This document shows, in pieces, positions 28,387-42,895 of a DNA stretch of 64,000 bases. The first letter of the stretch is position 1. Every line of letters starts with the position of its first letter. A program made the position numbers and the translations under genes. This DNA is from Micromonospora sp. HM5-17 (lineage in GTDB: Bacteria > Actinomycetota > Actinomycetes > Mycobacteriales > Micromonosporaceae): the NCBI RefSeq assembly GCF_003762835.1, contig NZ_RJWA01000001.1, positions 558,001-622,000 on the forward strand, in the 5' to 3' direction. The notes beneath the pieces were generated by a model, which was given only the letters and a program-made list of their open reading frames with translations, ran no database searches and had not been told where the DNA came from.

Positions 28387-30156
28387 TCACCCGCCGGCCA
28401 GGAGGCGCCGCTTGTCGGGTTTGCCGGCGGGGGAGACGGGCACCTCACCGATGACGGTGACGACCCGGGGTACGCTCGCCGCCCCGAGCCGCTCCCGAAC
28501 CAGTGTCCGGAGCACCGCCGGGTCGGGGCGCCGGCCCTCGGCCGGTACGACGAAGGCGTGCACCGCCTCGCCGGTCTCCTCGTCCGGAGCCGCCACCACG
28601 TACGCCTCGGCCACGTCCGGGTGGCTGGCCAGCGTGCGCTCGATCGGGCCGGCGTACCGGAGGTCGGCGTTGACGATGATGACGTCCCGGGTCCGGCCCA
28701 GTAGGTACAGGTACCCGTCGGCGTCCAGCCGGGCGAGATCGCGGGTGCGGACCCAGCCGTCCACGAAGACCTCGGCGGTCTCCGCCGGATCGGCCCAGTA
28801 GCCGCTCGCCTGGGCCGGGGTACGGACGAACAGCTCACCCGCGGTGCCCACCGGCACCGGCCGGCCGTCGGCGTCCCGGACCTGCACCTCGACCGCGTCC
28901 GGTGGGCGGCCCACCGAGGCGAGGATGTCCGACGATCCGACCCGCCCGCCGGGGTCGTGCGACGGGCCGCCCGTCACACCAGGGCCGTCCGGCCGGCCGC
29001 CGAGCGGGGCGGGGCTGGCCGGCGGATGGGTCGAGGGACCGTGGACGGTCGGCCGACGGCCGGCCAGGGCGGCGCTCAGCTCGGCCGGGGTCACCATCGA
29101 GATCATGCCGGTCTCGGTCTGTCCGTAGCCGTGATAGATGACCGGCCCGAGGACCGCCATCGCCTCGGCGAGCCGGCCCGGGTCGAGTGGCGAGCCGGAG
29201 ACCAGCAGGGCGCGCAGCGAGCCGAGGTCGGCCGGAGTGTTCCGCTGGACCGCCACCAGCTTCGCCAGCCGAGGCACGGTGATCACGCTGGCGGTGGCGC
29301 GATGCCGGGCGATCGCCGCCGGGAAGAAGGGTTCCGGCCCCCGGGGCGGGTCGGCCACGACCATGGTGCCACCGGCCGCGAGGGTGAGGATGCCGTACTC
29401 CAGCATCACCTGGCTGCTCAGCGAGCCGAAGACCAGGTACCGGTCGAGGTTGCCGGCGAGGTCGCGGACCGCCGGCGGCCACCGGTCCGGGTACGGTGCC
29501 CAGGCGCGGCCGAGCGCGGCGTACGTCTGGAGGCAGCCCTTCGGGTCGCCGGTGCTGCCGCTGGTGTAGACGACCCGGGCGATGTCGTCGGGGCGGCCGG
29601 CCGGGACCGGCGGGGATGGCGGCGCCGGAGTCGCGGTCAGGTCGGGTGTCCCGTCGACCGGGCCGACCGCCAGCAGCCGCAGCCCGGCCGCCGCCGACCG
29701 CAGCGGCGGGGTCGCGGTCGAGGGGTCGACGAGCACCGCCGCGATCCGGTGGCCGAGGATGTGTCGGAGCTGGCCGGGGGTGAGCCCGGGCCGGACGCCG
29801 GCGACCCGGGCGCCGACGACCTGCGCCGCGATGGTGGCGGCGAACGCCTCCGGCGTCACCCCGAGGACCAGGGCCACCCCGTCGCCGGGGCCGATCCCGG
29901 CATCCCGCAGCCCGGTGGCGATCCGGCCGATCAGATCCCGCATCTCGTCGGCCCCGACGATGCGCGGGCCGTGCTCGAAGACGGGGCGGTCCCGACCCGC
30001 GGCGAGCAGGTCGAGGATGGCCTGCGGGTAGCCCGGCCCGGCCGGCCGCGCCGGAATCCTATGTGGACGGGCCGGGTGCCGTCCGGGGCCGGCGCTGCCC
30101 GGCGCCGGCCCGGCGAGGGGGAGGACGGGACGCGGATCCGGCTCAGCACCCGACAT
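28387..30156 (-). CDS. ANL-superfamily acyl-AMP/CoA ligase
   Basis: A 589-residue adenylate-forming enzyme. The A3 phosphate loop VVYTSGSTGDPKGC, the A5 motif YHGYGQTETG, the A8 hinge RTRDLARLDADGYLYLLGRTRD and the C-terminal catalytic Lys region SPAGKPDKR are all present, so it should be active. A Pro/Gly-rich insert of about 45 residues (after AELSAALAGRRP) is unusual. No carrier-protein domain is fused, so the acceptor is CoA or a separate partner. ATG 30156 overlaps the flavoprotein stop by 14 nt: one operon, controlled by the heptamer promoter at 31723-31754. An aromatic acid from the neighbouring lyase is a plausible substrate (inference). Confidence 0.85.
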   Translation of the reverse strand: MSGAEPDPRPVLPLAGPAPGSAGPGRHPARPHRIPARPAGPGYPQAILDLLAAGRDRPVFEHGPRIVGADEMRDLIGRIATGLRDAGIGPGDGVALVLGVTPEAFAATIAAQVVGARVAGVRPGLTPGQLRHILGHRIAAVLVDPSTATPPLRSAAAGLRLLAVGPVDGTPDLTATPAPPSPPVPAGRPDDIARVVYTSGSTGDPKGCLQTYAALGRAWAPYPDRWPPAVRDLAGNLDRYLVFGSLSSQVMLEYGILTLAAGGTMVVADPPRGPEPFFPAAIARHRATASVITVPRLAKLVAVQRNTPADLGSLRALLVSGSPLDPGRLAEAMAVLGPVIYHGYGQTETGMISMVTPAELSAALAGRRPTVHGPSTHPPASPAPLGGRPDGPGVTGGPSHDPGGRVGSSDILASVGRPPDAVEVQVRDADGRPVPVGTAGELFVRTPAQASGYWADPAETAEVFVDGWVRTRDLARLDADGYLYLLGRTRDVIIVNADLRYAGPIERTLASHPDVAEAYVVAAPDEETGEAVHAFVVPAEGRRPDPAVLRTLVRERLGAASVPRVVTVIGEVPVSPAGKPDKRRLLAGG

Positions 30157-31714
30157 CGGCCAGGCGCTCCTTGACGAAGGCCGCCAGCGGCTGCTGGTGG
30201 ACCGTGGGCAGGTTCCACTGGTTCTCCAGGTTCTCCGCCAGGTGGTGTACCGCAACCACCGTCCCGTCCCGGTAGTGGCGGACCACCGGGTGCAGGTAGC
30301 TGGCCTCGTGTGCGGCGCTCGCGTCGTTCTCCCGGGGCCGGGGGACCGAGATGTCGAACGGGTCCACCATGTCGTGGTTGGCGCCGTACTCCAGGGTGAC
30401 GACGAGCGCGGAACCCCCGCCGAGCCCGCCCTCGGCGAGGTACGCCACCGGCACCTCCTCGTGGTAGGCGGCGGTGCCGCCGCGGAGCGCCACCACGTCG
30501 CCGAGGACGCCGAACTGCTGCCACAGCGCCGAGGAGCGGTTGACCCGGGCGATGATGGCGTCGGCGATCGCCTCCGGGGTCGGCTCGATCGGGGTGGCCG
30601 GCCACCCGATCCCGTGGTAGCGGGCGTTGAGGATGCGGTGCAGCGCCCGGACGCCGTACCGGAAGCCGTGGATGAAGCCGCTGGTCGACCTCTTGAAGTC
30701 ACGCTGCTGGGTGAGGGTGCCGGCGAAGTACAGGTCGGGGACGGTGGTTGACTCGTACGCCGGGGTCTGTTCCGGGAACCGGTCGTTGATGACCAGGCGC
30801 GGCCGGCAGGTGTCGTCGAAGATGTCGGCGTCGAAGCGGAAGCCGGTGCAGACGATGACCCGGTCGTACTCGATCTCCCGGATCGCCTCCACCGTGCGGG
30901 CGTACCGGAACCGGACCCGGTAGCCGCCGTCGGCGCGGCGCTCGATGCTCTCCACCGTGCCGTCGAGGACCGCGTTCTGCGACTTGAGCTGGTACGTGTC
31001 GAGGAAGTTGTTGTTCACCGCCCGCAGGTGGCCGACGTAGTGCGACTGCCAGGCGAACCGGATCGAGTGCGGCCCGGCCACGTGGACGACCGCGGCGGTC
31101 TCCACCAGGTTGTCGGCGGTCTCAAATCCGGAGTTTCCCTTGCCGATGATCATGACGCGCTGGTCGACGAAGTCCTCCGGGTCGACGGTGACCGTGTCGT
31201 ACCGTTCGGCGTGCTCGATCCCGGGGATCGGCGGCACGTAGAGCCGGGAGACGCCGGTCGCGACCACCAGCCGGCGAGCCCGCCAGGTCCGGCCGTCGGC
31301 GTCGACGGCGGCGAACCCGTCGGTGTCGCGGCTGACCCGGACCACCCGGGTCTGGTAGACCACCCGGACCCCGGTCGCCGAGGCGAAGTCGGCGAGGTAG
31401 CGCCGCAGGTCGTCGGCGGCCGGGAAGTAGCGGCGGCTGTACCGGCCGAACCGGAGGGCCGGATCGTCGCTGAGCAGCGAGTTCCAGTCCATCCGCAGGT
31501 TGAACTCGGGGTCGTCGGAGCCGGTGTACACCTTGTTGATGGAGATCAGCCTGCGGTGTCGCGGGTAGGTGGCGAAGAAGGTGCCCGGCGCGGTGCCGGC
31601 CTCCAGCACGACGTAGTCGCGGCCGTCGCGTTCCAGCAGGGCGGCCAGTTGGAGGCCCGCCGGGCCGGCGCCGATGATCAGGTAATCGTGCGTGGTCAGG
31701 CGTTCGTGCGTCAT
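30143..31714 (-). CDS. FAD/NAD(P)H flavoprotein resembling FOXRED2/ERFAD (copy A)
   Basis: A 523-residue two-dinucleotide-domain flavoprotein. The FAD motif GAGPAG is at 15-20; a second Rossmann motif, IGKGNSGFETADN, is near residue 195. From memory of the family, several blocks closely match human FOXRED2 (ERFAD): YPRHRRLISINK, DWNSLLSDDPALRF, HYVGHLRAVNNNFLDTYQLK and SGFIHGFRYGVRALH. It may be a monooxygenase or a thiol/disulfide-type oxidoreductase. The transcript looks leaderless: TACGGT ends 8 nt before the ATG. It heads an operon with the ANL ligase and has a paralog at 35476. Confidence 0.82.
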   Translation of the reverse strand: MTHERLTTHDYLIIGAGPAGLQLAALLERDGRDYVVLEAGTAPGTFFATYPRHRRLISINKVYTGSDDPEFNLRMDWNSLLSDDPALRFGRYSRRYFPAADDLRRYLADFASATGVRVVYQTRVVRVSRDTDGFAAVDADGRTWRARRLVVATGVSRLYVPPIPGIEHAERYDTVTVDPEDFVDQRVMIIGKGNSGFETADNLVETAAVVHVAGPHSIRFAWQSHYVGHLRAVNNNFLDTYQLKSQNAVLDGTVESIERRADGGYRVRFRYARTVEAIREIEYDRVIVCTGFRFDADIFDDTCRPRLVINDRFPEQTPAYESTTVPDLYFAGTLTQQRDFKRSTSGFIHGFRYGVRALHRILNARYHGIGWPATPIEPTPEAIADAIIARVNRSSALWQQFGVLGDVVALRGGTAAYHEEVPVAYLAEGGLGGGSALVVTLEYGANHDMVDPFDISVPRPRENDASAAHEASYLHPVVRHYRDGTVVAVHHLAENLENQWNLPTVHQQPLAAFVKERLADVGC

Positions 31715-31722
31715 GCGGCCGG

Positions 31723-31781
31723 ACCGTAGCGTTCGGTCATCAGAGATTACTCAGATCGTTCTGAGATTTCCCCGCTACGGT
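31723..31781. promoter_or_regulatory. Divergent promoter with shared SARP/OmpR-type heptamer repeats
   Basis: Rightward: heptamers CTCAGAT (31750-31756) and CTGAGAT (31761-31767), 4-nt spacer, then 8 bp and TACGGT (31776-31781), 7 nt before GTG 31789. Leftward (minus strand): CTGAGTA (31754-31748) and CTGATGA (31743-31737), 4-nt spacer, 8 bp, then TACGGT (31728-31723), 8 nt before ATG 31714. The upstream heptamers of the two promoters overlap at 31750-31754. Both transcripts would be leaderless. The identical geometry recurs at 35437-35468. Confidence 0.8.
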
Positions 31782-31788
31782 CGGCCCG

Positions 31789-33303
31789 GTGATGACCCAG
31801 CCCGGGACCGCCACCGCCCACACCGTCGATCTGGCCCGTCCGCTGCGACCACTGGACCTGCGGCGGGCGGCAGAGCCGCTGCGCGTCGAGGTCACCGGTG
31901 AGGTCCGCGACCGGGTCCGGCGGTCCCGGGCGCACCTGCGGGCCGTCCTCGGCGACGACCGCCCGGTGTACGGCGCCACCACCGGGTTCGGTGCGCTCGT
32001 CGGCTTCGCCGGCCGGGACGACGGGGCCGACCAGTGCGACAACACCCTTGCCCACCTCGGGGCGGGTCAGGGTCCGCAGCTCGACCCGGCCGTGGTCCGG
32101 GCCACGATGCTGGTCCGGGTCTGGTCGCTCGCCCAGGGCCACTCCGGCGTCTCGGTCGGGGTCGTCGACGGCCTCGCCGCGATGCTGGGGACGTCGTTCG
32201 TGCCGGCGATGCCACGGCTCGGCTCGGTCGGGGCCAGCGGCGATCTGATCCCGCTCGCCTACGCCGCGCAGTCGCTGCGCGGGCGGGGCTGGGCCTACCT
32301 GGACGGGGTGCGGCTGCCGGCGGCCGAGGCGCTGGACCGTGTCGGCCTGACTCCGCTCGTCCTGGACGGTCGCGACGCCCTGGCTCTGGTCAACGGCACG
32401 TCGCTGACCACCGCCGCCACCGCACTCGCCCTGGAGAGCGTCCGGGCCTCCCACCGGGCGGCCCAGCTGCTGACCTGTCTCCTCGTCGACCTGCTCGGCT
32501 GCGACCCCGACCAGTTCCTCCACCCCCGCCTGCTGGCTGCGTACGGCCACCCGGCCGCCGCCGATGTCGCCGCGCAGATGCGGACGCTGCTCGCCGGCGC
32601 GGTGCCCTCCGGCGACCGGCCGCTGCAGGAGGCGTACAGCATCCGCTGCACCCCCCAGTTGCTGGGCGCGGCCGAGGAGGCGCTGCGGTACGTCGACGGC
32701 GTGGTGGCGGCGGACCTGGGCAGTGTGAGTGACAACCCGCTCCTCTTCCCCGACGCCGACCTGGTACTGCACGGCGGCAACTTCTTCGGCCAGCCGGCCG
32801 CCTTCGCCGCCGACGTACTGGCGTTGGTCACCGCCCAGCTCGGCAACCTCGTCGAGCGCCAGCTCGACCTGCTGGTCGACCCGACACGCAACGGCGGCCT
32901 GCCGCCGATGCTGGCGGCGGGGCCGGGACGCCAGCACGGGTTGCAGGGCGTGCAGCTGGCCGCGACCGCGATCGTCGCCGAGCTCCGTCGCGCCGCCACC
33001 CCGGCGAGCACCCAGAGCCTGCCGACGAACCTGCACAACCAGGACGTCGTGCCGTTCGGCACCCAGGCGGCACTGCGAGCCGTGGACCAGGCCGGGCTGC
33101 TCCGGCTGCTCTGCGGTGCGCTGGCCGTCGGGCTGCGGCAGGCCGGGTACGTCGGCGCGCGGACCCCCACCGCACCCGGCTGTGCCGCCGCGTTCGCGCG
33201 ACTGGCCGAGACCGTACCGGCGATCGACCCGGATCGGCCGCTGGACGCGGACGTCGTCCGCGCCGCCGAGCTGCTCGACCGATTGACCGGGTCGATCGCC
33301 TGA
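31789..33303 (+). CDS. MIO-type aromatic amino acid ammonia-lyase or aminomutase
   Basis: A 504-residue HAL/PAL/TAL-family enzyme. The MIO cofactor triad Ala-Ser-Gly is at 149-151 in GSVGASGDL; the catalytic Tyr61 lies in VYGATTGFG, and a second active-site block is QEAYSIRC. The selectivity pair is His89-Leu90 (NTLAHLGAGQG), where histidine lyases have Ser-His; His-Leu is the tyrosine-lyase/aminomutase signature. It should therefore convert L-tyrosine to p-coumarate or to beta-tyrosine. GTG 31789 or ATG 31792 lies 7-10 nt after a TACGGT -10, so the mRNA is probably leaderless. No hut genes accompany it. Confidence 0.88.
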   Translation: MMTQPGTATAHTVDLARPLRPLDLRRAAEPLRVEVTGEVRDRVRRSRAHLRAVLGDDRPVYGATTGFGALVGFAGRDDGADQCDNTLAHLGAGQGPQLDPAVVRATMLVRVWSLAQGHSGVSVGVVDGLAAMLGTSFVPAMPRLGSVGASGDLIPLAYAAQSLRGRGWAYLDGVRLPAAEALDRVGLTPLVLDGRDALALVNGTSLTTAATALALESVRASHRAAQLLTCLLVDLLGCDPDQFLHPRLLAAYGHPAAADVAAQMRTLLAGAVPSGDRPLQEAYSIRCTPQLLGAAEEALRYVDGVVAADLGSVSDNPLLFPDADLVLHGGNFFGQPAAFAADVLALVTAQLGNLVERQLDLLVDPTRNGGLPPMLAAGPGRQHGLQGVQLAATAIVAELRRAATPASTQSLPTNLHNQDVVPFGTQAALRAVDQAGLLRLLCGALAVGLRQAGYVGARTPTAPGCAAAFARLAETVPAIDPDRPLDADVVRAAELLDRLTGSIA

Positions 33304-33353
33304 TCCCGTCGGGGTACGGACGAACAGGCGGGCCGCCGGCGACCGGGGCTGGT

Positions 33354-34181
33354 TCAGTTCCGCTGATCGTCGAGGAAGGCGAGGGTGGCCGCGGCGAACA
33401 GCGGCGACATGAAGATGGTGTAGTGGGTACAGCCGGGCAGGATGGCGAGCGCGTGGCCGCCCTTCGGCCGGCCCTCGCCCATCCAGCCGCCGTCCCGCTG
33501 TCCGCCGTCGAGCAGTGCGAAGACCTCGACGAAGTGGCTCGGCGGAGCCATGTCCGCGTCACCGGCCACGATCAGCGTGGGCACCTGGAGCCCCCGAACC
33601 TCCTCGGTGAGGTCGAAGTCCTTCGACATCGCCGCCCCGATCTTGTCCAGCAGCCGCGGGAAGTCCTCCGGGCGTGGCGCGACCCGCTGGTACAGCTGGT
33701 ACATCGGGGTGTCCTTCATCATCTCGGCGGTGGCGGCGCCCACCTGGCCCTGCTGCGCCCGGATCTCCGGGTAGACGGCGTCCGACCGGATGAACGCCGA
33801 GGCCGCGACGATCCGGCCGACCGTGTTCGGGTGTCGCACCGCGACGCGGAGCGCCACTCCGCCGCCGAGCGAGTAGCCGACGACGTCCGGCCGGTCCAGT
33901 CCGAGGTGGTCGATCAGCGCCGCGATGTCGTCCGCCAGGAAGTCCGGGTCCAACGGCCGGTCGACGTCCGCGGTCCGCCCGTGCCCCTGAAAGTCGACGG
34001 TGATGACCTGGTGACGCTCAGCCAGCGTGGGCAGGATCGGGCCGAACATGTCGCCGGAGCCGAGCCCGCCGTGCAGCAGGAGCATGGGGCGGCCGGAACC
34101 GTGGGTCTCGTAGTACAGGTTGACGTCGTTGACCTCCGCGTACCGGCCCGTGCCCTGGGTGTCGTTGCTCCACGCTGTCAT
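33354..34181 (-). CDS. Alpha/beta-hydrolase fold protein
   Basis: A 275-residue hydrolase. The oxyanion region LLHGGLGSGDMF, nucleophile elbow GYSLGG (Ser104) and the His in GCTHYTIF near 257 give the likely triad with an intervening Asp. GAGGAG lies 7 nt before ATG 34181. It is divergent from an ECF sigma gene with 175 nt between. It may be an esterase, epoxide hydrolase or haloperoxidase-like enzyme; fold alone does not decide. It lacks the heptamer promoter of its neighbours, so it may be passively included in the cluster. Confidence 0.83.
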   Translation of the reverse strand: MTAWSNDTQGTGRYAEVNDVNLYYETHGSGRPMLLLHGGLGSGDMFGPILPTLAERHQVITVDFQGHGRTADVDRPLDPDFLADDIAALIDHLGLDRPDVVGYSLGGGVALRVAVRHPNTVGRIVAASAFIRSDAVYPEIRAQQGQVGAATAEMMKDTPMYQLYQRVAPRPEDFPRLLDKIGAAMSKDFDLTEEVRGLQVPTLIVAGDADMAPPSHFVEVFALLDGGQRDGGWMGEGRPKGGHALAILPGCTHYTIFMSPLFAAATLAFLDDQRN

Positions 34182-34344
34182 GGTGTTACTCCTCGTTGCC
34201 GGTATGTGGCTGTCACCGGGTCAGACCGTGGGGCCGTCCGGAACTCATCGGTGATCCGCCAGAAATCTTTTTCTCGCCGGTGTCGGGCGTCGTGGCTGCC
34301 GGCTCCCCATGGTCGGCCGAGCCGCCGCTGACGGGGGGTCGAGG

Positions 34345-34350
34345 TACGTT
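34345..34350 (+). promoter_or_regulatory. -10 box of a leaderless sigma-factor transcript
   Basis: TACGTT lies 6 nt before GTG 34357, placing the transcription start at the start codon. No heptamer repeat is present upstream, so this gene is controlled differently from the biosynthetic operons. Confidence 0.5.
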
Positions 34351-34356
34351 GTGCCG

Positions 34357-35358
34357 GTGAGCGAGGGAACCACGGTCGAGCCCGCTGAGCTGCGCCTGGA
34401 GGCGTTCCGGGGCGAGTTGATCGGCTACTGCTATCGGATGCTCGGCTCGGTGTTCGAGGCCGAGGACGCCGTGCAGGACACGATGATCCGGGCCTGGCGG
34501 GGCCTGGACCGGTTCGAGGGCCGGGCGGCGTTGCGGTCGTGGCTGTACCGGATCGCGACCAACGTCTGTCTCACCATGCTGGGCAGCGCCCAGCGGCGCG
34601 CCCGCCCGATGGATCTCGGCCCGGCCGGCACCGCCCGGTCGGCGCCCGGCGAGCCGCTGCCGGAGGACGTGTGGGTCAGCCCGATCCCGGACGCGCTGGT
34701 CGCCGCCGGCGACCCGGCCGAGGTCGCGGTGGGACGGGAGTCGATCCGGCTCGCCTTCGTCGCGGCGCTCCAGCACCTGCCGCCGCGGCAGCGGGCGGTG
34801 CTGATCCTGCGGGATGTGCTCTCCTGGTCGGCTGCCGAGGCGGCCGAGCTACTCGACACGTCGGTCGCCTCCGTCAACAGCGCCCTTCAGCGGGCCCGGG
34901 CCGCGCTGGCCGACGCCGACCTCGGCGGCGACACCCTGCGCCCCATGGACGCGGCCCAGTCCGAACTGCTGGAACGCTACGTCACGGCGTTTCAGGAATA
35001 CGACATGGACGCGCTCGCGTCGCTGCTGCACGAGGACGTCACGCTGAACATGCCGCCGCTGCCGCTGTGGCTGCGCGGGCACGCCGACATCCGCGACTGG
35101 ATGCTCGGCACCGGCAGCGGGTGTCGTGGCTCCCGGCTGGTGCCCACGGTGGCGAACGGGATGCCGGCGTTCGGCCAGTACCGCCCGACCGGGCCGTGGG
35201 CGCTCGTCGTCCTGGACATCTCCGAGGGGCGGATCCGGGAGATCACCAACTTCCTCGACGTGGAGCGGCTGTTTCCGCTGTTCGGCCTCCCGATGCGGTT
35301 CGAGGGCCGAACCGCCCTCCGGTGGAACGACCGCGGCCAGGCCGGTGAGGGCGCGTAG
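34357..35358 (+). CDS. ECF sigma factor with SnoaL-like C-terminal domain
   Basis: A 333-residue group IV sigma factor. Region 2 (GELIGYCYRMLGSVFEAEDA, about 16-85) and region 4 (LPPRQRAVLILRDVLSW, about 145-200) are followed by a SnoaL/NTF2-like domain (about 205-330; LLHEDVTLNMPPLPLWLRG). This is the layout of the SigX5 (TIGR02960)/ECF41-like groups, in which the C-terminal domain modulates activity instead of a separate anti-sigma factor. I chose GTG 34357 because a -10 box ends 6 nt upstream. It is divergent from the hydrolase, a frequent pairing for these sigma factors. Confidence 0.87.
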   Translation: MSEGTTVEPAELRLEAFRGELIGYCYRMLGSVFEAEDAVQDTMIRAWRGLDRFEGRAALRSWLYRIATNVCLTMLGSAQRRARPMDLGPAGTARSAPGEPLPEDVWVSPIPDALVAAGDPAEVAVGRESIRLAFVAALQHLPPRQRAVLILRDVLSWSAAEAAELLDTSVASVNSALQRARAALADADLGGDTLRPMDAAQSELLERYVTAFQEYDMDALASLLHEDVTLNMPPLPLWLRGHADIRDWMLGTGSGCRGSRLVPTVANGMPAFGQYRPTGPWALVVLDISEGRIREITNFLDVERLFPLFGLPMRFEGRTALRWNDRGQAGEGA

Positions 35359-35436
35359 CCGGCGCCGGTGAACGGGCGCGGCCCGCAGCCGGATGTCGGG
35401 CACCGCCGCGTGCGCCCAGATGGTCACCTCGTCGGC

Positions 35437-35468
35437 CTGAGTTTTCTCTGAGTTCTCCCTCGTACGGT
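35437..35468 (+). promoter_or_regulatory. SARP/OmpR-type heptamer promoter of the second flavoprotein operon
   Basis: Two identical heptamers CTGAGTT (35437-35443 and 35448-35454), 4-nt spacer, 8 bp, then TACGGT (35463-35468) and 7 nt to GTG 35476. The arrangement is the same as at 31723-31781, with the most regular repeats of the three. A leaderless transcript is expected. Confidence 0.82.
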
Positions 35469-35475
35469 CTGCGGC

Positions 35476-37056
35476 GTGACCGCAGAGATGCTCGACTATC
35501 TGATCATCGGGGCGGGTCCGGCCGGACTCCAGCTCGCGGCGCTTCTCGAGCGAGACGGCCGCCGGGATTACCTGGTGCTGGAGTCCGCCGCCGCCCCCGG
35601 CGCGTTCTTCACCCGGTTTCCACGGCACCGGCGGCTGATCTCGATCAACAAGCCGCACACCGGCTCCGACGACCCGGAGCTGAACCTGCGGCTGGACTGG
35701 AACTCGCTGCTCAGCGACGATCCGGCGCTGCGCTTCACCCGGTACACCGAGCGGTACTTCCCGCACGCCGACGTCATGGTCCGCTACCTGGCGGACTTCG
35801 CGGCGGCGACCGGGGTCCGCGTCCGGTACGGCAGCCGGGTCACCCGGGTCTCCCGGGCCCCGGACGGCGGCTTCGCGGTCAGTGACCAGACCGGTACGGT
35901 GCACCGGGCCCGCCGGGTCGTGGTGGCGACCGGGGTCTCCCAGCCGTACGTCCCGCCGATTCCCGGTGTCGAGCACGCCGAGCTCTACACCGAGATGTCG
36001 GTCGATCCCCGGGACTTCGTCGACCAGCGGGTCCTCGTCATCGGCAAGGGCAACTCGGCGTTCGAGACCGCCGACAACCTGATGGAGACCACCACCCTGA
36101 TCCACGTCGCCGGCCCGGGCCCGGTCCGGATGGCCTGGCGGACCCATTACGTCGGCCACCTCCGGGCGGTGAACAACAACTTCCTCGACACGTACCAGCT
36201 CAAGTCGGCGAACGCGATCCTCGACGGGCACGTCCGCGAGATCGCCCGCGACGCGGACGGCTACCGGGTGGTGTTCAGCTTCTCCCGCGCCGACGAGGTC
36301 ACCAAGGAGCTGCGCTACGACCGGGTGCTGCTCTGCACCGGCTTCCGGTTCGACGCGTCGATCTTCGACGACGATTGCCGGCCGGCGCTGACCATCGACG
36401 ACCGCTTCCCGGCCCAGACGGCCGAGTGGGAGTCGGTGAGCGTCCCGAACCTGTTCTTCGCCGGCACGCTCTCCCAGGAGCGGGACTTCAAGCGCTCGAC
36501 CAGCGGATTCATCCACGGCTTCCGGTACGGCGTGCGTGCGCTGCACCACATCCTGGAACGGCGGTACCACGACGAGCCATGGCCCGCCGAGAAGCTCGAC
36601 GCCGACGCCGAGCCGATTGCCGACGCGATCATCGAGCGGGTCAACCGCAGTTCCGGGCTGTGGCAGCAGTTCGGGGTGCTCGCCGACGTGGTGACGGTGG
36701 CCGGGGCGAACGCCCGGTACCACGAGGAGGTTCCGGTCGAGTACGCCACCCGGATCGGGCTGGCCACGGCGGACCATCCGGTCGAACACGCCTTCTTCGT
36801 CACCCTCGAGTACGGCCCGGAGCATGACCGGGTCGACCCGTTCGACATCTCGGTGCGTCGGGTCGTCCAGGACGCGGTCGGCCAGGCGCACGCCGCCGCG
36901 TACCTGCACCCGGTGGTCCGGCACCACCGCGACGGCCGGGTGGTCGCGGTCCACCACCTAACGGAGAACCTGGAGAACCGGTGGAACCGGCCGGACGTGC
37001 ACCGGGCGCCACTGGTCGCCTTCCTGGACCGCTGCCTCGACGGCGCCGTGGGGTGA
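35476..37056 (+). CDS. FAD/NAD(P)H flavoprotein resembling FOXRED2/ERFAD (copy B)
   Basis: A 526-residue paralog of the 30143-31714 protein, collinear with it throughout. GAGPAG is near residues 11-16, FPRHRRLISINKPHTG and DWNSLLSDDPALRF follow, the second Rossmann motif is VIGKGNSAFETADN, and FKRSTSGFIHGFRYGVRALH lies near 345. The two copies differ mainly in the C-terminal third. They may catalyse successive steps or form a heteromer. This copy leads an operon with the alpha-hydroxy-acid oxidase (3 nt gap), P450, linker ORF and antiporter. Start GTG 35476 follows the leaderless promoter. Confidence 0.83.
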   Translation: MTAEMLDYLIIGAGPAGLQLAALLERDGRRDYLVLESAAAPGAFFTRFPRHRRLISINKPHTGSDDPELNLRLDWNSLLSDDPALRFTRYTERYFPHADVMVRYLADFAAATGVRVRYGSRVTRVSRAPDGGFAVSDQTGTVHRARRVVVATGVSQPYVPPIPGVEHAELYTEMSVDPRDFVDQRVLVIGKGNSAFETADNLMETTTLIHVAGPGPVRMAWRTHYVGHLRAVNNNFLDTYQLKSANAILDGHVREIARDADGYRVVFSFSRADEVTKELRYDRVLLCTGFRFDASIFDDDCRPALTIDDRFPAQTAEWESVSVPNLFFAGTLSQERDFKRSTSGFIHGFRYGVRALHHILERRYHDEPWPAEKLDADAEPIADAIIERVNRSSGLWQQFGVLADVVTVAGANARYHEEVPVEYATRIGLATADHPVEHAFFVTLEYGPEHDRVDPFDISVRRVVQDAVGQAHAAAYLHPVVRHHRDGRVVAVHHLTENLENRWNRPDVHRAPLVAFLDRCLDGAVG

Positions 37057-37059
37057 GCC

Positions 37060-38181
37060 GTGCCCCCGGTGGCGGACCGGGTGGGCTCGCGCCGCACACC
37101 CACGGCCGGTGCGAGCCCCCTGGTGAACCTCGACGACCTGAGGACCGAGGCCGAGCGTCGGCTCGACCCGGTGCACCGAGACTTCTTCGCCGGCGGGGCC
37201 GGTGACGAGCGCACCCTGCGGGCCAACGAGACCGCCTTCGACGCGTACCGGATCCTGCCCCGGGTGCTGCGCGGCGGGGGTGCGCGCGACCTGCGGATCA
37301 CCCTGTTCGGGGACGAGCTCGCCCTGCCGGTGCTGGCCTCTCCGACGGCCTTCCACCGGCTGGCGCACCCGGACGGGGAACTCGCCTGCGCCCGCGCGGT
37401 CGCCGCCGCCGGCACCGTGATGGTGGTGAGCATGGCGGCCACCACGCCGATCGAGGCGGTCGCCGCGGCGACGGACGCCGAAAGGCGGCGGGCCCGGCTG
37501 TGGTTTCAGCTCTATCCGCAGCCGGATCTCGGCTTCACCGAGTCGGTGATCCGGCGGGCCGAGGCCGCCGGCTGCCAGGCCCTGGTGGTGACCGGCGACT
37601 CACCGGTGTTCGGGTGGCGCGAACGCGACCTGCGTAACGGTTTTCTCGACCTGCCGTCCGGCCTGTGGTGCGAGAACATGCGGGATCCCCAGACCGGGAC
37701 GGTGCGGAACATCGTGATGGACGACCGCCTCGACTGGGCTCGGATCGACTGGCTGCGCGAGATCACCCGGCTGCCGGTCGTGTTGAAGGGCGTCCTGCAT
37801 CCGGCCGACGCCCGGCTGGCGGTCGAGCACGGGGTCGACGCCGTCCTGGTCTCCAACCACGGCGGGCGGCAACTGGACGGCGTACCGGCGAGCATCGACG
37901 CGCTGCCGGCGGTGGTCGACGCCGTCGAGGGGCGTGTTCCGGTCCTACTCGACGGCGGTGTCCGCCGGGGAACCGACATCCTCACCGCCCTGGCCTTCGG
38001 CGCCGTCGCGGTCGGGGTCGGGCGGCCGGTGGTCTGGGGCCTCGCCGCGCGGGGCGAGGCCGGGGTACGGCAGGTGTTCGACTGGCTGCGGGCGGACCTC
38101 GCCCGGGCCATGACCCTCGCCGGGGCGGTCCGGCCCGCCGACCTCACCCCGGACCTGATCCTGCCGGGGGCGGCCGGATGA
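37060..38181 (+). CDS. FMN-dependent alpha-hydroxy-acid oxidase/dehydrogenase
   Basis: A 373-residue TIM-barrel flavoenzyme of the glycolate oxidase/lactate monooxygenase/mandelate oxidase family. The active-site signature SNHGGRQLDG is at 265-274 (catalytic His267, substrate Arg270), FMN-binding Lys243 is in VVLKGV, and the phosphate site is LLDGGVRRGTDI. It oxidises a 2-hydroxy acid to a 2-keto acid; family members such as hydroxymandelate oxidase act on aromatic acids. There is no membrane insertion segment, so it is probably an O2-using cytosolic form. Start GTG 37060 is 3 nt after the flavoprotein stop. Confidence 0.88.
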   Translation: MPPVADRVGSRRTPTAGASPLVNLDDLRTEAERRLDPVHRDFFAGGAGDERTLRANETAFDAYRILPRVLRGGGARDLRITLFGDELALPVLASPTAFHRLAHPDGELACARAVAAAGTVMVVSMAATTPIEAVAAATDAERRRARLWFQLYPQPDLGFTESVIRRAEAAGCQALVVTGDSPVFGWRERDLRNGFLDLPSGLWCENMRDPQTGTVRNIVMDDRLDWARIDWLREITRLPVVLKGVLHPADARLAVEHGVDAVLVSNHGGRQLDGVPASIDALPAVVDAVEGRVPVLLDGGVRRGTDILTALAFGAVAVGVGRPVVWGLAARGEAGVRQVFDWLRADLARAMTLAGAVRPADLTPDLILPGAAG

Positions 38182-39551: not shown

Positions 39552-39601
39552 TTACGTCCGGTTCGGTGGCGGCGGTCAGGGCGGGAGGCGGGGCGACATG
39601 A
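39548..39601 (+). CDS. 17-residue linking ORF between P450 and antiporter
   Basis: The ORF encodes MITSGSVAAVRAGGGAT. Its ATG overlaps the P450 stop as ATGA, and its TGA overlaps the antiporter ATG as ATGA. GAGGAGG at 39534-39540 is a near-perfect ribosome site 7 nt upstream of the ATG, whereas the antiporter start has weaker GGAGG-like signals inside the ORF. The simplest role is translational coupling; a functional peptide is possible but has no signature. Confidence 0.55.
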   Translation: MITSGSVAAVRAGGGAT

Positions 39602-40884
39602 GCCCGGTGGAGCTGGCACCCCGCTTCTTCTTCGCCGTCGCGGTGATCCTGCTCTTCTGCCGGCTGATGGCGTGGTTGCTCGGCCGGGTCGGCCAGCCGG
39701 CGGTGGTGAGTGAGATGGTGGCCGGCGTTCTGCTCGGGCCGTCCCTGCTCGGTCTGGTGGCGCCTGGCGTCCAGGACGCGCTGTTCCCGGAGCCGCTCTA
39801 CCCGGTGCTCTACGTCGTCGGACAGGTCGGTCTGGTCATCTTCATGTTCCAGGCCGGGTACGCGTTCACCGCGCATCCGATCACCGGGCTGGCCGGTACC
39901 GCCGGCGCGGTGTCACTGGCCGGGATCTTCGTGCCGCTCGGCCTCGGCGTGCTGCTGGTGCTCGCCACCGCCGCGCACGCGCCCGTCGTGGCGGAGGGCG
40001 CCCCCCTCGGGGTCACCGCCGCGTTCGTCGGGGTCGCCCTGGCCATCACCGCCTTCCCGATGCTCGCCCGGATCATCACCGAGGGCGGGCACGCCGGCAC
40101 CCGGTACGGCTCGCTGGCCCTGGCCAGTGGCGCGATCGACGACGTGGTCGCCTGGATCCTGCTCGCCGGGGTCCTCGCCACCGCCTCCGGCCGCCCCGGC
40201 CCGGCGCTGGTGACGGTCGGCGGCGCGGTGCTGTTCGGGGTACTGCTCTGGTTCGTCGGTCGTCGGCTGGTCGCCGTGCTGATCGGCAGTGACCGGCTCG
40301 GCGACCAGGCCCGGCTGCTCGGCCTGGTCGTGCTCCTCTTCGCGGCTGCGTGGTTCACCGACGAGGTCGGCCTGTACGCGGTCTTCGGCGCCTTCTCGGT
40401 CGGCGCGATCATGCGGCACCACCCCCGCACCGACCGGATGGTCGCCACCATCACCCCGGTCTGCCAGATCGCCTTCCTACCGCTCTTCTTCACCTACTCG
40501 GGCCTGCACACCGAGTTCGGGCTGCTCGGCCAGCCGTCGGTGCTGTTCTTCGCGCTGGCCTGCGTCGCGCTCGCCGTCGTCGGCAAGTTCGGTGCCTGCT
40601 GGTCGGTGGCCCGGATGCGGGGCGAGCCGAAGAGCGTGGCGCTGCGGATCGGCGCCCTGATGAACGCCCGCGGGCTGATGCAGCTCATCGCGATCAACGT
40701 GGGCATGGCGGCGGGGATCGTCAACGCGACGCTCTTCACGGCTCTGGTGCTGGTCGCGCTCGTCACGACGCTGATGACCACCCCGGTGTTGCGCTGGATC
40801 GCGCGGCGTGAGGCGAGAAGTCCCGGTCTGCTGAACACGAAAGATCCGATGCTAGCGGTTCAATCGACCGCCGACAGGACATAG
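39598..40884 (+). CDS. CPA2 family cation/proton antiporter
   Basis: A 428-residue membrane protein with about 12-13 helices and the Na+/H+ exchanger fold of KefB/NapA-type CPA2 antiporters. GVLLGPSLLG, an unwound-helix region with SGAIDDVVAWILL (Asp-Asp pair expected to bind the ion), and LMNARGLMQL are characteristic. No RCK/TrkA regulatory domain is attached. It is the last gene of the heptamer-controlled operon. Similar antiporters occur in biosynthetic clusters as exporters or ion-homeostasis proteins, so export or self-protection is a guess. Confidence 0.88.
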   Translation: MSPVELAPRFFFAVAVILLFCRLMAWLLGRVGQPAVVSEMVAGVLLGPSLLGLVAPGVQDALFPEPLYPVLYVVGQVGLVIFMFQAGYAFTAHPITGLAGTAGAVSLAGIFVPLGLGVLLVLATAAHAPVVAEGAPLGVTAAFVGVALAITAFPMLARIITEGGHAGTRYGSLALASGAIDDVVAWILLAGVLATASGRPGPALVTVGGAVLFGVLLWFVGRRLVAVLIGSDRLGDQARLLGLVVLLFAAAWFTDEVGLYAVFGAFSVGAIMRHHPRTDRMVATITPVCQIAFLPLFFTYSGLHTEFGLLGQPSVLFFALACVALAVVGKFGACWSVARMRGEPKSVALRIGALMNARGLMQLIAINVGMAAGIVNATLFTALVLVALVTTLMTTPVLRWIARREARSPGLLNTKDPMLAVQSTADRT

Positions 40885-40913
40885 GGACATCTATCACTAT
40901 CGATATATGTGGG

Positions 40914-41621
40914 GTGGTGTGCGATCCTCGACGTGTGCTGAAGGCAAGCGGTCAGTCACCCGTCGTGCCCCGGCTGCTTCTGGTCGAGGACGACGTGGAA
41001 CTCGCGGACATGCTCAGCGAGGTGCTGACCGACGAGGGGTACCTCGTCGACGTGGCCCGGGACGGACAGCGCGCCCTGCACCTCGGGCTCACGCGGCCAT
41101 ACGACGTCATGGTGATCGACCGGCTGCTGCCGGCGCTCGACGGGCTCAACCTGCTGGCCCGGCTGCGGTCCCGCGCGGTCGGCGCCCGGGCCCTGATGCT
41201 CACCGCCCTCGGTGCGGTCGACGACCGGGTCGCCGGGCTGGACGCGGGAGCCGACGACTACCTGATCAAACCCTTCGACCTGGACGAGCTGAGCGCGCGG
41301 CTGCGGGCACTGTGCCGGCGCACCTCGGACGGCGCCGACGCGCTCCCGATCGGGGCCGGCCAGCTCGACCTCGCCCTGCGCGACGTCGTGCTGCCCGACG
41401 GGTCCCGGGTGGCACTCTCGGCCCGGGAGTTCGAACTGCTCCGGGTGCTCGCCGTCCGCCCCCGGATGGTGCACTCCCGGGCCGAGCTGCGCCGCCGGGT
41501 GTTCGACGAGGCGGCATCCCCGTCCATTGTGGATACGTACGTGTACTACCTGCGCCGTAAGCTCGGCCGGGCCGCGGTGCGGACCGTGCACGGCCTCGGC
41601 TATCGGCTGGGTGAGCTGTGA
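40914..41621 (+). CDS. OmpR/PhoB-family response regulator
   Basis: A 235-residue regulator: receiver domain with acidic cluster Glu25-Asp26-Asp27, phospho-acceptor Asp69 (VMVIDRLLP) and Lys near 120 (IKPFD), then a winged-helix DNA-binding domain ending VRTVHGLGYRLGE. OmpR-family proteins bind tandem half-sites on an 11-bp period upstream of -10, the pattern at the two cluster promoters, so it is the best in-cluster candidate activator. The start is GTG 40914, close behind an AT-rich GATATA box; GTG 40935 is an alternative. Its stop overlaps the kinase start (GTGA). Confidence 0.88.
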   Translation: MVCDPRRVLKASGQSPVVPRLLLVEDDVELADMLSEVLTDEGYLVDVARDGQRALHLGLTRPYDVMVIDRLLPALDGLNLLARLRSRAVGARALMLTALGAVDDRVAGLDAGADDYLIKPFDLDELSARLRALCRRTSDGADALPIGAGQLDLALRDVVLPDGSRVALSAREFELLRVLAVRPRMVHSRAELRRRVFDEAASPSIVDTYVYYLRRKLGRAAVRTVHGLGYRLGEL

Positions 41622-42895
41622 GAGCTGACCGGCCGGCGCCGTCACGGACCGGGATCTCCTGGGCCGCCGCCGAACGCGCGGTGGTCGCGCGGGCCCGACG
41701 ACGGATCGGGCTGCTGGTCGGGGTCGCGGTGACGGTGCTGGTGACGGCGGTCGGCGGTGTCGCCTACGGGATGCTGGTACGCGGCCAGGAACGCCAGATC
41801 CAGCGGGAACTGGCCTACGCCGCCGAGCACGGTGACCCGTCCGGCCCGCCCGGCTGCACCTGGCTCGTCGTCCTTCACGAGGGAGAGCTGGTCACCGGCC
41901 GGATCCCTGTGCCGGCCGGCTTCCCGCTGACCGACGTGTTGACCGCGACCGCCGCCACCCGGACCACCCACGTGACCACCGTCGAGCGCAACGGCACCGT
42001 CTACGTCGTCCTGACCCGGCCTCGCGGCGAGGACGTGGTGCAGGCCATCTTCGACGCCCGCTACCAGCTCGCCGACCGGCGCCACCTGCTTCTCGCTCTC
42101 GCCGTCGCCGAGGCGGCCGGGCTGCTCGTCGCGGTCTCCAGCGGCATGGCCCTGGGCCGGCGCGCCGTCGCGCCGCTCGCCGAGGCGCTCGCCCGGCAGC
42201 GCCGGTTCGTCGCCGAGGTCAGCCATGAACTGCGGACGCCCATCGCCCAGGTGCACACCCGGGCCCAGGTGCTCGCCCGCCGGGCCGGGAACGCCGGCGT
42301 GCCGGCCGACTACCGCGCCGAACTGGACCGGCTGATCGGCACCACGCGGCGGCTCGGCGAGGTCGTCGACGACCTGCTGCTCTCCGCCCGGCTGGCGGCC
42401 CTGCCGGACAACCGGCCGGTGGCCGACCTGGTGGATCTCGCCGCTCTTGCCGAGGCGGCGGTCGTCGCCGAGACGGACCGCGCTGCCGAGCACGGGGTGA
42501 CGGTCACGCTGAGCCGACCCGACGTCCCGCTGCCGGTGCTCGGCGTCGGCTCCGCGCTACGCCGGGTGGCCAGCGAACTGCTGGCCAACGCCCTGACGCA
42601 CACGCCCGCCGGCGGGCAGATCGAGGTGGTCGTACGCCGTGACGGCCACGTCGTCGAACTGGTCGTCACCGACACCGGGACCGGCTTCGATCCCGCCGAC
42701 CGGATCTTCGACCCGTTCCACAGCGGCAGGGCTGGACGACATACGGGCCTCGGGCTGGCGCTGCTCCGCGAGGTCGTCACCGGCCACGGCGGCACGATCG
42801 AGGCCCGGGGCCGCCCCGGCCAGGGCGCCAGTTTCGCCGTCCGGCTGCCGGCCCGGACCGAGCAGGCTCGGCCGGTGGCCCGGGTCGGCGGCTGA
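41618..42895 (+). CDS. Sensor histidine kinase
   Basis: A 425-residue membrane kinase cotranscribed with the response regulator. Two membrane helices (about 29-54 and 156-178) bracket a short extracytoplasmic sensor of about 100 residues. A HAMP-like linker follows, then HisKA with phospho-acceptor His203 ([12 protein letters not shown]), and HATPase_c with N box [15 protein letters not shown]1 DTGTGFDP and G2 [11 protein letters not shown]. The sensor has no domain that I recognise. Signals may be the pathway product or ion stress related to the adjacent antiporter. Confidence 0.9.

Follow-up and report, generated by a model that had tools for sequence, protein, structure and literature searches.

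The gene cluster and its promoter elements

The window, a 64,000-nucleotide stretch of the Micromonospora sp. HM5-17 genome, carries an aromatic amino acid pathway cluster together with a two-component system (Table 1). The lyase is nearest to R. sphaeroides 2o6y and the tyrosine aminomutases, flavoprotein B lies weakly near the class B monooxygenases, and no solved chain is near the P450 at E 1e-15. The true start of the ligase is uncertain, its open frame extending to 30702. The listings from literature searches aimed at the aromatic amino acid pathway did not bring this pathway up.

Table 1. Genes and promoter elements of the cluster (positions in the window)
Feature	Position	Strand	Basis or detail
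ANL-type (AMP-binding) ligase	28387–29943	−	Pfam AMP-binding
Flavoprotein A (fA), Pyr_redox_3 type	30143–31714	−	
fA element (flavoprotein A + ligase), CTGAGTA-N4-CTGATGA-N8-TACGGT	31723–31754	−	Read from sequence; CTGAGTA 31754–31748, CTGATGA 31743–31737, TACGGT 31728–31723, 8 nt to ATG 31714
Lyase element, CTCAGAT-N4-CTGAGAT-N8-TACGGT	31750–31781	+	Read from sequence; CTCAGAT 31750–31756, CTGAGAT 31761–31767, TACGGT 31776–31781, 7 nt to GTG 31789
MIO-type aromatic amino acid lyase	31789–33303	+	Pfam Lyase_aromatic, 435 bits
fB element (flavoprotein B operon), CTGAGTT-N4-CTGAGTT-N8-TACGGT	35437–35468	+	Perfect direct repeat; CTGAGTT 35437–35443, CTGAGTT 35448–35454, TACGGT 35463–35468, 7 nt to GTG 35476
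Flavoprotein B (fB), paralog of flavoprotein A	35476–37056	+	70% identity
FMN-dependent hydroxy-acid oxidase-like enzyme	37060–38181	+	
Divergent cytochrome P450	38178–39551	+	Pfam p450, 39 bits
Sodium/proton antiporter-like membrane protein	39598–40884	+	Pfam Na_H_Exchanger
OmpR/PhoB-type response regulator, proposed element binder	40914–41621	+	Pfam Response_reg + Trans_reg_C
Sensor histidine kinase, proposed regulator partner	41618–42895	+	Pfam HisKA + HATPase_c

The three heptamer-N4-heptamer-N8-TACGGT elements stand letter for letter where the initial annotation had placed them. All three copies are present, but they are not three separate ones: the divergent plus- and minus-strand elements have the half-site at 31750–31754 in common, as the distal half-site of both, and the divergent fA/lyase region comprises three half-sites at 11-bp steps. 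The lyase copy is a near-direct repeat, yet CTCAGA/TCTGAG is equally an inverted repeat, since TCTSAGA and its reverse complement differ at the middle base alone. Similarly, the claim of an identical TACGGT −10 holds for the three window promoters but not for relatives, where merely TANNNT is kept. Neither promoter region contains a consensus −35/−10 pair, and no element was found in the window upstream of the regulator gene.

Rarity and conservation of the element

The element is unique to these promoters within its own genome. The core pattern CTSA-N7-CTGA-N11-TANNNT, searched with 0 mismatches, has three matches in the 6.17-Mb genome, exactly the three window promoters, and its backwards reading, used as a control, has none. 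The longer pattern CTGAGWT-N4-CTGAGWT-N8-TACGGT, at up to 3 mismatches, matches twice, at the two plus-strand sites (the minus-strand fA element differs from it at 4 positions), and read backwards it has 0 matches. The genome-wide scan thereby returns no crowd of random matches of the kind that would have counted against the initial annotation. Because the core pattern was composed after inspection of the three window sites and their relatives, it is the other genomes that provide independent tests.

Among family genomes, exact sites number about 2.0 per genome in the 74 that carry the cluster and about 0.3 in the 280 that do not. The cluster-bearing genomes hold 146 sites against 13 control matches, which, with the absence of backwards matches in the window's own genome, rules out chance repeats. 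Cluster-free genomes also show an excess over control (91 sites against 64); 13 of these 91 sites fall in six g25 genomes, five of which have real elements at a reduced cluster, with none in the sixth, G308. Exact sites are missing from four of the 74 cluster genomes (G003, G147, G203 and G299), and in G004 and G029, judged by eye among the matches listed, the exact sites lie on contigs other than those of the flavoprotein genes.

Across orthologous loci the element is well conserved, as the initial annotation would require: allowing at most 1 mismatch, it adjoins the lyase in 78 of 80 lyase loci of other genomes, 10 of the 78 with an altered spacer. Moreover, 92 stretches totalling 1.91 Mb contain 139 exact sites, every one of them upstream of a cluster operon (125 assigned by script and 14 by inspection); in none of the 139 is the regulator, kinase, P450, antiporter or oxidase the first gene after the element. 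Where clusters are rearranged, the element is found at the first gene of the operon, and the three-promoter plan recurs in loci L011–L014 and in genomes G333 and G337, both of which support the proposal of one activator for all operons.

Half-site arrangement and co-occurrence with the regulator

Analysis reveals two arrangements of the half-sites. Promoters that serve a single operon are true direct repeats, in 15 of 15 exact sites at solo fB promoters (window included) and in 10 of 10 at second ligase operons, with an 11-bp period and 8 bp to the −10. Lyase-facing promoters are mostly of the inverted form, unlike the direct-repeat operator of OmpR/PhoB type; specifically, one shared pair of half-sites stands as an inverted repeat in 70 of 81. 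The divergent promoter of the window and of L011–L014 has three half-sites, with the middle one readable both ways, and four fully separate half-sites occur in seven other genomes (G304–G307, G309, G310 and G353). The two-, three- and four-half-site forms keep the same phasing. Individual loci vary in spacing: the half-sites of L061 lie 22 bp apart, again whole helical turns, the half-site step of L085 is 12 bp, and in lyase promoters of the Microbispora type the distance to the −10 is 9 bp.

The ortholog of the regulator is present in 78 of 80 genomes, the same 78 that carry the element, and the kinase family is represented at 60 loci including the window. By eye, the receiver keeps the acidic pair, Asp, Thr and Lys. 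The two remaining genomes retain most of the enzymes, with the element absent and neither regulator nor kinase beside the enzymes; as these two look closely related, they perhaps reflect one event. Loci that keep most enzymes but lack both the element and regulator/kinase are L018, L023 and L202–L204. Co-occurrence alone is weak, because genes of one pathway travel together. In addition, no gene family beyond the nine cluster proteins is common to more than 12 loci; of the families that pass this mark, just two are regulatory, the regulator and the kinase.

Proposed activation by the cluster regulator

The closest known systems are of two kinds. As in PhoB/PhoP control, the cluster encodes a receiver plus Trans_reg_C winged-helix regulator with a sensor kinase, and the window fB element and the solo promoters have the two 7-nt direct repeats with a 4-nt spacer that the excerpted text of PMC4415409 gives for the PHO box; the E. 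coli PHO box heptamer CTGTCAT starts with CTG, like the CTGA-type half-site here. Unlike the PHO box, the half-site here is near-palindromic and occurs both inverted and direct, two divergent promoters share one half-site pair, the starts are probably leaderless, and a single pathway cluster is proposed to be regulated. The second kind comprises SARP-activated promoters (AfsR, PimR), in which, according to excerpts of PMC10936776 and PMC5930380, repeats 11 or 22 bp apart form a box over the −35 region and the 3′ repeat lies 8 bp from the −10. The same spacing is found here, and the initial annotation's view of 11-bp repeats with 8 bp to the −10 as activator geometry agrees with both systems.

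Since the element and the cluster's own two-component regulator co-occur in relatives, this regulator is very probably the on-switch of the pathway. Specifically, we infer, with a probability of roughly 0.75, that the 40914 regulator occupies a pair of half-sites at an 11-bp step and activates all three operons together from leaderless promoters. The suggestion of one winged-helix activator, perhaps this protein, is supported by the uniqueness of the element in the genome, its retention at lyase loci, and its shared presence and absence with the regulator. The kinase at 41618 would presumably phosphorylate the regulator, and a tandem dimer of the regulator would bind a pair of CTGA-type half-sites spaced by one helical turn. 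The proximal half-site is 8 bp from the TANNNT −10, and therefore the dimer would occupy the would-be −35 position; by analogy with PhoB and AfsR, it may recruit the main sigma factor, with transcription beginning at about the start codon. Flavoprotein A with the ligase, the lyase, and flavoprotein B with the oxidase, P450 and antiporter would then be switched on together, a near-palindromic TCTSAGA half-site serving both directions at divergent promoters.

It is unlikely that the same regulator binds but represses, or that the shared element imposes a two-way choice with one operon on at a time. The site does overlap the −35 region, a position at which a bound protein can equally obstruct polymerase, and one half-site pair commonly serves two promoters, but the fixed 8-bp spacing to the −10 and the missing consensus −35 fit activation better, and L069 and L081 retain the lyase-side element though no divergent −10 was found there. 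Activation by a SARP whose gene lies at some other place in the genome would explain the geometry, and 18 BTAD matches occur genome-wide. All 18 fall outside the window, which rejects a SARP there; no further gene family is common to more than 12 loci, and it is the cluster's own OmpR-type regulator, a two-component response regulator unlike the SARPs, that follows the element across rearrangements. Activation by such a distant SARP is quite improbable. A dimeric repressor (TetR, MarR or similar) that blocks both divergent promoters from the palindrome CTCAGA-N4-TCTGAG is very doubtful: the inverted pair prevails at lyase-facing promoters and overlaps both would-be −35 regions, but the solo fB and second ligase promoters lack an inverted repeat and have direct repeats, unreadable by a dyad binder, and no further regulator family is common to more than 12 loci. 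An early reading of the site as a pure repressor palindrome was dropped in view of the direct repeats at the solo promoters. Finally, the ECF sigma factor gene at 34309 sits inside the window's cluster, but promoter recognition by its product is rejected, as this gene and its hydrolase neighbour recur in 0 of 80 other loci whereas the element is in 78.

Within the preferred reading, activation by the cluster regulator, the unusual feature is a half-site apparently read in both directions. Inverted-repeat sites are unusual for tandem-binding OmpR-type regulators. The arrangement of the sites tentatively suggests that one near-palindromic TCTSAGA half-site pair, 11 bp apart and read in either polarity by an OmpR-type regulator, could drive two opposite leaderless promoters, a possibility that we rate somewhat below even. 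If true, either a fixed-polarity tandem dimer forms a two-way switch, or the DNA-bound dimer is symmetric in a way not usual for the OmpR family. Promoters with two, three and four half-sites form a natural series well suited to asking whether a response regulator that binds in tandem can use one operator both ways. The element is, moreover, a specific marker of the cluster, and the proposal provides a testable on-switch, with exact bases given, for a widely shared, little-studied aromatic amino acid pathway in soil bacteria.

Promoter elements and genes of the window

Each of the three promoters carries the element proposed in the initial annotation, which reads directly as heptamer-N4-heptamer-N8-TACGGT, with 7 nt from the -10 to the start codon for flavoprotein B (fB) and the lyase and 8 nt for flavoprotein A (fA). 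The core pattern CTSA-N7-CTGA-N11-TANNNT occurs without mismatch three times in the 6.17-Mb genome, only at these promoters, and its backwards control has no match there. A promoter scan of 31650–31850 and 35340–35520 found no consensus sigma-70 promoter.

Features of the window
Feature	Positions	Strand	Remark
fA	30143–31714	-	
Lyase	31789–33303	+	best alignment R. sphaeroides 2o6y
Hydrolase and ECF sigma genes	33354–35358		alpha/beta hydrolase; ECF sigma with SnoaL domain (SigX5/TIGR02960 type)
fB	35476–37056	+	
P450	38178–39551		39 bits against Pfam p450
AT-rich stretch	40885–40913		contains ATCGAT
Response regulator	40914–41621	+	OmpR/PhoB type
Sensor histidine kinase	41618–42895	+	

Of 253 relatives, the best 80, on named contigs, supplied lyase loci for comparison; their record titles indicate genera including Micromonospora, Actinoplanes, Plantactinospora, Lentzea, Saccharothrix, Nonomuraea, Microbispora, Actinomadura and Streptomyces. 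Over the window and these loci, the two flavoproteins are counted in 79 loci and the lyase also in 79, followed by the ANL-type ligase in 76, the response regulator in 64, the FMN oxidase and the P450 in 62 each, the kinase in 60 and the antiporter in 56. No other family exceeds 12, and the counts, which rest on clustering of simple gene calls, miss some copies. The P450 is very divergent, matching no solved chain at E 1e-15, and is nonetheless kept with the cluster. Absent from all 80 other loci, the hydrolase gene and the ECF sigma gene that separate the lyase from fB look like an insertion that spared the fB promoter.

The lyase retains a His-Leu pair in its alignment with 2o6y, at what we take to be the tyrosine-selective site, while the FMN enzyme is closest to lactate and other hydroxy-acid oxidases. 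In titles and abstract openings, a literature search aimed at the pathway found no description of it.

Conservation across loci and rearranged operons

The element is conserved in orthologous loci, its lyase-side copy being present with at most one mismatch in 78 of 80. Exact matches number 33 on the lyase side and 67 on the divergent side; among 14877 pieces of 235 bp drawn at random from these loci, 34 match exactly, a figure that may include genuine cluster sites lying outside the lyase promoter. Of the 78 lyase-side elements, 68 keep both the 4-nt and the 8-nt spacer, and the other ten have 9 bp to the -10 (seven loci), 7 bp (L079), or a half-site gap of 5 nt (L085) or 15 nt (L061). On the divergent side, the first ATG or GTG lies 7 or 8 nt past the -10 in 61/67 exact cases. 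For the lyase-side elements, the scripted distance was 6–8 nt in 17/33 and 2 nt in another 15, the latter owing to a GTG within the stretch preceding the likely start. From these short distances we infer that the messages may be leaderless.

Gene order varies among groups of loci. The fB operon is positioned behind the ligase and fA in Lentzea and Saccharothrix, and several Actinoplanes have fB at a distance from the lyase; in Streptomyces, fA-ligase forms a separate operon, and another flavoprotein, taken for fB, stands opposite the lyase. Additionally, 11 Microbispora, Nonomuraea and Actinomadura genomes hold a second operon elsewhere, comprising ligase, flavoprotein, oxidase, P450, antiporter, regulator and kinase, in which the oxidase was not found in L161 or the ligase in L162. 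The window, the 80 loci and the 11 second-operon stretches (92 stretches, 1.91 Mb) contain 139 exact sites. Of these, 125 were attributed by script to operons opening with the lyase, fA or fB, and inspection placed two opposite the lyase (L053, L070), two before Streptomyces ligase operons (L074, L086) and ten before second operons (L152–L161); thus, none lies outside the cluster operons. At the L162 promoter, a direct repeat is followed by an imperfect -10, and the solo fB element of L044 has one mismatch.

Five genomes of group g25 (L166, L167, L170, L171, L177) show a reduced cluster, in which the ligase diverges from a stretch toward the FMN oxidase, adjoined by the P450 in some. These carry two complete direct-repeat elements, with no lyase match inside the 3-kb loci.

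A search for fA in 354 genomes of the family gave a match at E <= 1e-60 in 131 of them, remote paralogs (~45% identity) included. The 74 cluster genomes, defined by a flavoprotein match at E < 1e-180, hold 146 exact sites versus 13 backwards matches, with at least one exact site in 70; the other 280 hold 91 versus 64. Several g24 genomes share a different recurrent sequence fitting the pattern, CTGACCGGATCCTGACATCCGCTCGGTATGTT and near copies (e.g. G145:C40:353851, G209:C24:35261, G234:C76:87214); in G197, the sole genome with both among the matches listed, it lies away from the cluster.

Direct and inverted half-sites

All 15 exact sites at fB promoters that run one way, the window's among them, and all 10 at second operons carry G in the distal half-site and are thus true direct repeats; all 12 exact Streptomyces fA-ligase sites carry C there, giving the inverted form. 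Among the 81 lyase-facing promoters, including the window's, one pair of half-sites 11 bp apart serves both directions in 70. Three half-sites at 11-bp steps occur in the window and L011–L014, and two half-sites lie 12 bp apart in L085. Upstream of the L061 lyase they lie 22 bp apart versus the usual 11, exactly one helical turn being inserted with both -10 spacings retained. The remaining four lack the element on both the lyase and divergent sides (L018, L023) or on the divergent side (L069, L081). In seven family genomes (G304–G307, G309, G310, G353), the ligase/oxidase, ligase/fB or fA/lyase divergent regions contain four separate half-sites, spaced at 11 bp within each pair. The fB element of G333, from the window's genus, is identical to that of L011. 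A single rule, CTGA 8 bp from the -10 and CTSA 11 bp farther up, appears to cover all arrangements.

The response regulator and putative activation

An ortholog of the window's regulator (at least 60% identity) lies within 65 of the 80 lyase loci. Searches of 13 of the 15 remaining genomes recover it at 60–65% in 11 but reach only 48–50% in L018 and L023; the last two, L052 and L059, have it at 78%. The regulator is therefore present in 78 of 80 genomes, the same 78 that bear the element. Both L018 and L023 retain ligase, lyase, an fB-like flavoprotein, oxidase, P450 and antiporter (fA was not seen at the L018 lyase locus); neither a regulator nor a kinase lies among these genes, and their promoters lack the element. 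Since the two genomes look closely related, the joint absence may represent one event. Their best regulators (L163 9369–10025, L164 9362–10018) have no cluster genes nearby and a receiver altered with gaps, and their recognition helix closely resembles the one in the cluster regulators. Directly 5' of the window's regulator gene, the short AT-rich stretch differs from its surroundings and is perhaps a separate promoter or operator.

SARP promoters carry direct repeats spaced by 11 or 22 bp with the 3' repeat 8 bp from the -10, the box lying at about -29.5 and bound by a side-by-side dimer touching sigma region 4 (PMC10936776; PMC5930380), and PHO boxes consist of two 7-nt repeats with a 4-nt spacer (PMC4415409). 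The window elements fit both of these descriptions, resembling SARP promoters in repeat spacing and in the 8 bp to the -10, and the PHO box in the two 7-nt repeats and 4-nt spacer. PhoB-type activation is preferred because the conserved partner is a response regulator, and the best reading, by analogy, is that the cluster promoters would be activated in this manner by the regulator at 40914 as their putative binder.
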